64,000 nucleotides of DNA, from the NCBI GenBank assembly GCA_022841465.1, contig JALHRL010000018.1, positions 1-64,000 on the forward strand, written 5' to 3'. Positions within the stretch are counted from its first letter, which is position 1, and each line of letters begins with the position of its first letter. Below are positions 25,071 to 27,235 of the stretch, piece after piece. Below the pieces are notes generated by a model that ran no database searches, was not told the origin of the DNA, and saw only the letters and a program-made list of their open reading frames with translations. Made by a program: the position numbers and the translations under genes. This DNA comes from Bacteroidia bacterium. GTDB taxonomy: Bacteria > Bacteroidota > Bacteroidia > B-17B0 > Aurantibacillaceae.

Positions 25071-25532
25071 TTAAGCGTTGTTTTTATCGTGGAGTTTATC
25101 CAATAAAAAGTTTAATGAATTGATATCGTTTTTATCTAAATGCTTAAACAACTCTATAAATGTTTCATCAACATGATCAAGAGATTCAAGTAATTTTAAA
25201 CCTTTTTCGCTAATTAAAAGGTTTAAGTTTCTTCTATCGGTTTTACTTTCTACCTTAACAACAAAACCTTTTTTAATAAGCTTATCTACAATTCTGGAAG
25301 CATCACTCATAGCATCCAGCATTCTTTCTTTAATTAAACGCAAGTTACAAGTACTAGGGTATTGCCCACGCAGGATTCTTAAAACATTGTACTGTTGGTG
25401 CGTTATTTCTTGATTTTTAAAATGATTTTGTATGAGATAATTAATCCAGTGACTGGTATACAAAATGTTAATTGCCAATTTATGCTCTGGCGTTTTGAAT
25501 TTAGATTGTTTAATTTTTGTTTCTAGTGACAT
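25071..25532 (-). CDS. MarR family transcriptional regulator
   Basis: The 153-residue protein has the winged-helix layout of MarR dimers: helical N-terminal dimerisation region, recognition helix within MSDASRIVDKLIKKGFVV (about residues 83-100), and the wing DRRNLNLLISEKGLKLL with its conserved DRR. Such regulators usually repress their own gene and neighbours from short palindromes. Two copies of a 12-bp palindrome lie in the yceI promoter just upstream, making it the most likely target. A terminator-like hairpin lies 9 bases before this start codon. Confidence 0.93.
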   Translation of the reverse strand: MSLETKIKQSKFKTPEHKLAINILYTSHWINYLIQNHFKNQEITHQQYNVLRILRGQYPSTCNLRLIKERMLDAMSDASRIVDKLIKKGFVVKVESKTDRRNLNLLISEKGLKLLESLDHVDETFIELFKHLDKNDINSLNFLLDKLHDKNNA

Positions 25533-25540
25533 AAATAAAA

Positions 25541-25562
25541 AGAGGCCGTGGTTACGACCTCT
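25541..25562 (-). terminator. Terminator-like hairpin just upstream of marR
   Basis: On the minus strand AGAGGTCGT pairs with the segment ACGGCCTCT with one mismatch around a short loop, and TTTTTATTT follows before the marR start codon. It may end the yceI message while letting some transcripts read through into marR, or act as an attenuator together with the alternative hairpins at 25618-25677. Confidence 0.6.
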
Positions 25563-25720: not shown

Positions 25721-26314
25721 TTAAGATTTATTTAATTCAATGGTTATGTTAAGGTTTACATCATCGCTAACAACAACGCCCCCCGATTCAAGTGCAGCGT
25801 TCCAGGTTAAGCCAAAATCTTTACGATTAATTTTTCCGGTTACTTTAAACGCATATTTAATATTACCCCAAGGGTCTTTTACTGTTTTTTCTGAACCAAC
25901 GGCAACTAAAATTACTTTTTTGGTAACACCTTTAATGCTTAAGTTGCCTTCTAAAATATAGGTTGTTTTTACTTTAGTTGGCTTCATGCTTGTGGCAATA
26001 AATGTCATTTTTGGGAATTTTTCTGCATCAAAAAAATCAGGCCCTTTTAAATGTCCATCTCTTTTTTCATCATCTGTGTTTACAGAAGCTGCATCAATGT
26101 TAAAGGCAATTTTAGCATCTGTAAAATCTGTTTCGGTTTTACTTGAAATGCCGCCTTCGTAAATTTTAAATTTCCCTTCGGTTTCACTTACCATTAAATG
26201 AGTAACAGAAAAGCCTACTTTAGAGTGGCTGTTATCAATTTTCCAGTTAACTTGTGCAAAGGTGCCAGCAATAACTCCCGTAACTGCTGCAATTGTTAGA
26301 ATAGTTTTTTTCAT
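25721..26314 (-). CDS. YceI family lipid-binding periplasmic protein
   Basis: YceI proteins are lipocalin-like barrels that bind isoprenoid-type lipids in the periplasm and often respond to stress. The protein has a Sec signal (MKKTILTIAAVTGVIAGTFA), then the family pattern VNWKIDNSHSKVGFSVTHLM, HLKGPDFFDAEKFPKMTF and GNLSIKGVTKKV. I chose the ATG at 26314, giving 197 residues. An ATG seven codons upstream precedes the signal peptide without benefit. It is the first gene of a unit with marR, and its promoter holds the likely MarR operators. Confidence 0.93.
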   Translation of the reverse strand: MKKTILTIAAVTGVIAGTFAQVNWKIDNSHSKVGFSVTHLMVSETEGKFKIYEGGISSKTETDFTDAKIAFNIDAASVNTDDEKRDGHLKGPDFFDAEKFPKMTFIATSMKPTKVKTTYILEGNLSIKGVTKKVILVAVGSEKTVKDPWGNIKYAFKVTGKINRKDFGLTWNAALESGGVVVSDDVNLNITIELNKS

Positions 26315-26332
26315 AGTTTTTTTATCTGGATA

Positions 26333-26366
26333 CAAATATATGTTATAACATCTAATGTTATAACAT
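26333..26366 (-). promoter_or_regulatory. yceI promoter with tandem MarR-type operators
   Basis: The perfect 12-bp palindrome ATGTTATAACAT occurs twice, at 26340-26351 and 26355-26366, 15 bp centre to centre. On the minus strand TATATTTG (26340-26333) matches the -7 consensus TAnnTTTG. Nineteen bases upstream TTAT (26363-26360) sits where the -33 element belongs, inside the distal palindrome. A dimeric regulator on these sites would cover the promoter. The marR gene is the next gene downstream of yceI, so it is the obvious candidate. Confidence 0.75.
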
Positions 26367-26485: not shown

Positions 26486-27235
26486 ATGAAATACGCCAAC
26501 ATTATTCTTTTTACAATTTGCATTGTGTTTTTTTCTTGTAAAAAGGAGGACAAAACGCCAAATAACAATACAGGAAACACCACACCTATTACCGATGGGA
26601 GTATAAGTAATGAAGCTACCCATAGTGGAATTTTAACAAGTGGCTCATATACTACCATATTGATGAATAATACGCCTTTTGTAAGTGAAAGAGCCAAGGC
26701 ATATTTTAGCAGTACACCAACTCAGTTTATGAATTCTACTACGGCTATGCAAGTTTCAAAAGTGTTTTTTAATGGAGATACGCTTTCATATAGCTCAATA
26801 ATGAAATATTATGATTCATACACTCCTGTTAATTTAGCAACTGAAACTTGGTCGGTGGTTGGAGCAAACAACATTGGTTCTTTTTCAACTTCTATTAATG
26901 CAGTTACACCCGGTTTTAATGCTGTTTCTATACCAGATAGTATAAGCAAAGGGAGTGGGTTTTCAGTTAATATTAATAATGTTGCTAATACAGAAAAAGC
27001 AAATGTTTTTTTAATGGATGGAACAAACACTATTACAGGATTTGTAACAAAAAATTTATCGAACGGTAATAACAATGTAACCTTTTCTGCTTCTGAATTA
27101 AATTTACTTACAACAACCAATAATGGTTATTTTGCAATTGTTTTATCCTCTGATAAGGCTTTTTATTTTTCAGGAAAAAGCTTTCAGTTTGTGCGCGAGG
27201 CACAGTACTCCAAGGAAATAAAAATTAAACCTTAA
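26486..27235 (+). CDS. Hypothetical lipoprotein
   Basis: The 249-residue protein begins with a lipoprotein signal (FFSCKK, lipidated Cys18), then an Asn/Thr-rich linker to about residue 40. The rest is probably beta-rich, with no catalytic motif I can identify. It is likely anchored in the outer membrane or inner face of the envelope. It stands alone: it is divergent from yceI across the operator region, and is convergent with clpC, from which a shared bidirectional terminator separates it. MarR might therefore affect it as well, but nothing shows that directly. Confidence 0.7.
   Translation: MKYANIILFTICIVFFSCKKEDKTPNNNTGNTTPITDGSISNEATHSGILTSGSYTTILMNNTPFVSERAKAYFSSTPTQFMNSTTAMQVSKVFFNGDTLSYSSIMKYYDSYTPVNLATETWSVVGANNIGSFSTSINAVTPGFNAVSIPDSISKGSGFSVNINNVANTEKANVFLMDGTNTITGFVTKNLSNGNNNVTFSASELNLLTTTNNGYFAIVLSSDKAFYFSGKSFQFVREAQYSKEIKIKP

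Follow-up and report, generated by a model that had tools for sequence, protein, structure and literature searches.

What is the function of two identical palindromes lying immediately in front of a yceI gene? In the window, by which we mean the complete stretch of 64,000 nucleotides analyzed here, both copies of ATGTTATAACAT are perfect palindromes with a start-to-start distance of 15 bp, and a marR gene lies beside yceI on the same strand (Table 1). Both observations were already part of the sequence-only reading and can be read directly from the DNA; that reading had further predicted direct repression of a yceI–marR unit. Our analysis makes it very probable that the two palindromes form a tandem operator for the MarR-family repressor whose gene directly follows yceI, and most likely this tandem would be the autoregulatory operator of the adjacent MarR. 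To our knowledge few operators of MarR regulators from Bacteroidota seem to have been described, and a literature search for YceI together with MarR in Bacteroidota gave no paper among the matches listed, subscription papers being mostly outside its scope.

Table 1. Features of the yceI–marR locus in the window
Feature	Positions	Strand	Description	Basis
Distal box ATGTTATAACAT (putative operator)	26355..26366	.	covers the -33 region in front of yceI	sequence
Proximal box ATGTTATAACAT (putative operator)	26340..26351	.	fills the spacer; 1 base common with the -7 element	sequence
-7 promoter element TATATTTG	26333..26340	-	fits TAHHTTTG reported for F. johnsoniae (PMC6847099)	sequence
yceI	25721..26314	-	YceI lipocalin-like family, 197 aa	PF04264, 155.3 bits vs cut-off 23.7
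Terminator-like hairpin	25541..25562	-	between yceI and marR; 9 pairs, T-rich tail to the marR start codon	
marR	25071..25532	-	proposed repressor, 153 aa	PF01047 (MarR wHTH domain), 33.4 bits vs curated cut-off 24.6

On the minus strand the order is ATGTTATAACAT TAG ATGTTATAACAT ATATTTG, followed by 18 nt to the start codon of yceI (ATG, 26314-26312); the gap between the boxes is 3 bp and reads CTA on the plus strand. The promoter elements of the window were assigned by consensus only, and TATATTTG runs from 26340 to 26333 on the minus strand. For F. johnsoniae the accessible text of PMC6847099 gives a -7 consensus TAHHTTTG, a weak -33 element and a transcription start 4-5 nt downstream. Because of this 4-5 nt rule the yceI start site would be expected near 26328. 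The layout claimed earlier, with one box over the -33 region and the other reaching up to the -7 element, holds for the position of the boxes, but the -33 position of the window reads TTA and has no TTG. Beyond the yceI promoter there is a divergent ORF of 249 aa (26486-27235) which by eye looks like a lipoprotein; it has no match in Pfam or NCBIfam and none in the marR loci L004-L097.

Exact copies of ATGTTATAACAT are confined to the two promoter boxes, both in the 64-kb window and in the whole genome (3,773,151 bp), where the search for further sites suggested in the sequence-only reading was carried out. With up to 2 mismatches the window contains 8 matches against 8.9 expected, so that weak copies carry no meaning. 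In the whole genome such matches (368 per strand) are even fewer than those of the reversed control (526), and we rejected the weak 12-mer copies as a regulon. For the single AT-rich 12-mer, 0.7-1.6 copies are expected per genome (Markov order 0-3, window composition), that is, the single word is at background frequency. Two exact boxes at the observed spacing are expected about 1e-6 times (0.7-4e-6, composition only). The tandem pattern ATGTTNNAACATNNNATGTTNNAACAT is found in the genome at one place with up to 2 mismatches and at one other with 3, the reversed control giving 1 match. It is the tandem, not the single word, that exceeds chance. The earlier reading had held that a random occurrence at the expected frequency would speak against it; as the word is at background and the pair is unique at up to 2 mismatches, this is true of the word and not of the pair. 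A viral scan gave no match to the exact tandem, and the only Rfam matches of the window at gathering scores were two tRNAs.

Is the pair conserved in related genomes? A MarR protein match (E ≤0.001) is present in 101 of 120 relatives, and the sample used here comprises 95 marR loci, from which two copies of the window locus (L001 and L002) were excluded and in which the window's own locus (L003) is included. At 51 of the 95 loci yceI lies upstream of marR on the same strand, and 45 of these 51 linked promoters have the tandem at a 3-bp gap with at most 4 mismatches of 20. Throughout these 45 promoters (window included) G3, T4, A9 and C10 are invariant in both boxes; taken separately, positions 3, 4, 8, 9, 10 and 11 are invariant in the distal box and positions 2, 3, 4, 9 and 10 in the proximal one. 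The centre varies, its two bases being mostly AC, GC, GT, AT or TA, and so do the box ends, in some cases on the two sides at once (5 distal boxes read TTG...CAA). Such invariant flanks around a variable middle would fit a protein that contacts the two half-sites and leaves the centre free. The six exceptions are L010 and L041 with the proximal box only, L033 with one box, L062 with a weak pair at gap 2, and L076 and L084 with 8 mismatches at best and nothing close; for L076 a later search with a different pattern and a wider region did place a tandem. A chance or structural repeat without any regulator would agree with the background frequency of the single 12-mer. However, the pair and its spacing are kept in 45 of 51 linked promoters while the centres vary, and this explanation has next to no probability.

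Whole genomes were scanned as well. With at most 1 mismatch the tandem is found in 55 of 87 family genomes (reversed control 1 of 87); two of the 55, G004 and G005, have an unrelated match in common, and one further weak match was seen in each of G011, G013 and G058. The match common to G004 and G005 is an identical TTGTTTTTACAACGCATGTTATAACGT at G004:C2:36784-36810 and G005:C43:64458-64484, and neither yceI nor marR was found around the G005 copy (L102). Genus g1 (40 genomes) has the tandem in 30 of the 34 genomes with a strong MarR match; in the remainder the site is degenerate or single-box (G027, G028, G039) or marR is broken at contig ends (G004). Among the six g1 genomes without a strong MarR match, G011 and G023 have the site and their contigs end within yceI, and the tandem is absent from G005, G029, G033 and G038. 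A single box joined to the -7 element, ATGTTNNAACATNNATTTG, occurs in 44 of 87 family genomes (reversed control 3 of 87). Its matches fall at known yceI–marR or tandem places in 37 of the 44 and at a contig end in G121; single matches elsewhere were seen in G039, G060, G043, G063, G070 and G061.

The promoter elements can be compared in the linked promoters. TAnnTTTG is found in 43 of the 45 linked promoters with the tandem, and 17 of these 43 have a TTG 20 nt upstream of the -7 match, inside the distal box. Further upstream, TTTAAC or TTAACA begins at a distance of 11-14 nt from the distal box in 32 of 45 linked loci and of 21-23 nt in 7, one of them the window (at 21, about 26387); in the other 6 neither word is present within 24 nt of the distal box.

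Does the site belong to yceI or to marR? At the 44 loci without yceI in front, we searched the 120 nt preceding marR for two WTGTNNNNACAW boxes with a gap of 0-20. A pair at gap 3 with at most 2 mismatches of 16 precedes marR at 15 of the 44 loci (shuffles 0.2). A second sample, drawn from 29 loci and 100 stretches with repeats dropped, consists of 116 loci with distinct proteins; here the best-scoring matches were taken first, so that the draw is not random, and some loci have yceI in front. The gap-3 pair stands before marR at 47 of these 116 loci (shuffles 0.6). Other gaps exceed the shuffles less strongly (gap 7 at 28 of 116 vs 0.5, gap 0 at 20, gap 9 at 19), perhaps through overlapping half-sites. 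The three other yceI paralogues of the genome have no tandem. Judged by these comparisons, the site follows marR, not yceI. All 224 loci taken together encode 211 distinct MarR proteins, 117 with the tandem at up to 2 mismatches and 94 without it, and the MarR subfamily was matched in 291 of 396 sampled Bacteroidia genomes (E ≤1e-22). Two loci, L090 (G065) and L093 (G058), are marR–pirin–pirin–nitroreductase rows with TTGTTGTAACAA CTA TTGTTATTACTA before marR; both genomes also contain yceI–marR loci (L012 and L009, respectively).

The product of the window's marR gene is predicted to have the MarR-family fold: the structural model (mean pLDDT 79.5) gives its best hit with MepR 4l9n (Z 15.0, rmsd 2.8 over 136 residues). 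The closest solved structure by sequence is 3u2r, a MarR protein of Planctomyces limnophilus, with 48.9 bits for the window protein and 99.4 for A1. The 12 NCBIfam MarR families listed all stay under their cut-offs (HpaR 42.8 vs 121.2). In the model D77 stands just before the predicted recognition helix (78-88) and C62 just before the helix formed by residues 64-70; by the alignment of L004, residue 77 is the one preceding 'LTR' of E. coli MarR. Compared with the 45 linked MarRs, the window protein has A74 where the others have R or K, K93 where they have R, and S96 where 38 of 45 have Cys. Among linked proteins of at least 46% identity (six lower linked ones and proteins shorter than 120 aa excluded), C62 is found in 40 of 45 against 4 of 43 others, and C96 in 38 of 45 against 25 of 43. 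We considered a C62–C96 thiol switch as a general mechanism and ruled it out since the window protein has S96, which means that such a disulfide is not general.

Residue 77 goes together with one base of the operator. Base 5, with the complement of base 8, was free in the search pattern and was counted in the half-sites of the 117 loci. Proteins with D at residue 77 have T at base 5 in 189 of 200 half-sites (A 10, G 1), those with N have A in 201 of 268 (T 47, C 17, G 3), or put differently, D77 is found with TGTT..AACA and N77 with TGTA..TACA; 18 of the 67 N77 sites are mixed. Outside the yceI–marR clade, the D-type loci L090, L093 and L260, in which the pair lies before marR itself, mostly have T, and L097 is mixed. 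As the tree has no more than two changes at residue 77, corresponding to 1-2 independent pairs, the association is not significant alone and relatedness could suffice. These data also bear on the possibility that the boxes are bound by a different transcription factor which regulates both yceI and marR-type operons. Such a factor could be argued for as MarR is named as the binder from sequence comparison. Against this, the site occurs about once per genome, it stays with marR when gene order and partner genes change, and base 5 changes with residue 77 of MarR, and we regard another factor as highly improbable.

If MarR is the binder, one dimer would sit on each 12-bp box. The centres of the boxes are 15 bp apart (about 1.4 turns), which would place the dimers on roughly opposite faces of the DNA, where they could bind together, possibly cooperatively. 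Once bound, the dimers would lie across the spacer and the edge of the -7 element and block access of RNA polymerase, and this coverage of the promoter favours repression over activation. It is also conceivable that MarR binds the tandem and activates yceI or acts as a dual regulator; the distal box lies upstream of the spacer, and YvmB of B. subtilis is described in PMC4992311 as a positive regulator of yisI. The proximal box, however, shares a base with the -7 element, and among the 117 loci, irrespective of their kind, 61 have TAnnTTTG beginning at the last base of this box, which is a blocking position, so that activation is quite improbable. A MarR repressor is the reading we follow. In the repressed state yceI would be silent until an inducer frees the DNA of MarR.

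How marR itself is read is less straightforward. The two genes are separated by 188 bp containing the hairpin, and terminator-like hairpins are present in 27 of 51 yceI–marR gaps, window included, which argues against simple cotranscription. Of the repression proposed earlier for the yceI–marR unit, a conserved operator at a blocking position supports the repression, whereas the hairpin calls for caution about the unit. Given the hairpin, marR is probably read by leak, by read-through or from its own start, also in the repressed state, and the repressor may then be kept low relative to YceI. No perfect ATGTTNNAACAT box was listed in the yceI–marR gaps. The intergenic hairpin may set the ratio of YceI to MarR.

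Which signal could release the repressor? Within the stretches examined, yceI was the only partner found at the 51 linked loci, so that the ligand of the window operon is a guess. Partners of related MarRs are more varied. At the 44 loci without yceI in front, the genes downstream of marR on the same strand are pirin (15), yceI (11), nitroreductase (4), LigB dioxygenase (3), OsmC (1) and one that we take to be DoxX-like, its protein having no Pfam match; names are from Pfam matches of representatives, and all partner counts are raw numbers. The 116 further loci have yceI 48, pirin 21, nitroreductase 19 and LigB 7 downstream, and yceI 16, pirin 6, OsmC 2 and nitroreductase 1 upstream, with any partner at 85 loci. 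These partners hint at quinones or other electrophiles, and our most likely guess for the inducer would be a quinone or another small aromatic electrophile. YceI proteins bind isoprenoids. In PMC5350466 they are termed bacterial lipocalins. The inducer could then be a lipid or isoprenoid that YceI binds, and not a quinone or electrophile to which MarR itself responds; this variant is compatible with the tandem operator. The MarR relatives sit, however, with pirin, nitroreductase, LigB dioxygenase and OsmC, like quinone-responsive regulons. The YceI domain covers residues 24-194, and by eye the N-terminus has a signal-peptide-like stretch; we know of no path by which a secreted YceI would act on MarR. 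The suggestion of the sequence-only reading that the ligand is bound by YceI found no support here, and we consider a YceI ligand as the inducer rather doubtful.

Known MarR systems share some of these features. E. coli MarR represses its own operon at two sites; it shares the wHTH fold of the window model (Z 14.1 to 3voe) and differs in operator sequence and in its antibiotic-resistance regulon. MhqR of S. aureus and B. subtilis is a MarR repressor, as proposed here, and the genes under its control, for quinone reductases, nitroreductases and dioxygenases (PMC6798810), resemble the partners of this subfamily, whereas the window operon holds none of these detoxification enzymes. According to PMC12893000 quinones bind MhqR without a thiol switch; the sequence match of SaMhqR (9QDR in the same source) is 47.9 bits with A1 and 27.6 with the window protein. 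The operator reported for MhqR is a single 9-9 bp inverted repeat, TATCTCGAA-aTCGAaATA, at -6 to +12 around the start site (PMC6798810), whereas the window has two copies of ATGTTATAACAT, which lie upstream of the -7 element and reach up to it. The zinc repressors ZitR/AdcR of the MarR superfamily share the layout. Here a MarR-type dimer is described with two 12-bp palindromes over the -35 and -10 elements of the zit promoter (PMC6372160), and in the window, too, two palindromes lie over both promoter elements, as far as these are assigned by consensus only. The ZitR/AdcR box is TTAACYRGTTAA, the repressor is zinc-dependent and the promoter is of the -35/-10 type according to the same source; the window boxes are not TTAACYRGTTAA and the promoter is -33/-7. 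Autorepression by MarR proteins and, from the ZitR report, paired palindromes over both promoter elements are known, and the box sequence is the part of its own here.

Taken together, the comparisons support a conserved operator, kept with unusual precision, placed to block the -33/-7 promoter of Bacteroidota and tied to a MarR subfamily across families and gene orders. It is possible, and we propose it only tentatively, that this class-wide subfamily does in Bacteroidia what MhqR does in the quinone response elsewhere. Each member would guard the operon to which it belongs (with yceI, pirin, nitroreductase or LigB dioxygenase) via two WTGTNNNNACAW boxes that keep a 15-bp period and adjoin the -7 element, with specificity set largely by residue 77 (D77 for TGTT..AACA, N77 for TGTA..TACA). 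If so, the network would be readable from sequence. For the MarR subfamily the analysis provides a precise operator, a spacing and a candidate specificity residue, for the widespread protein YceI a clue to what it responds to, and a repressor with such a simple operator could serve as a genetic tool in Bacteroidota.
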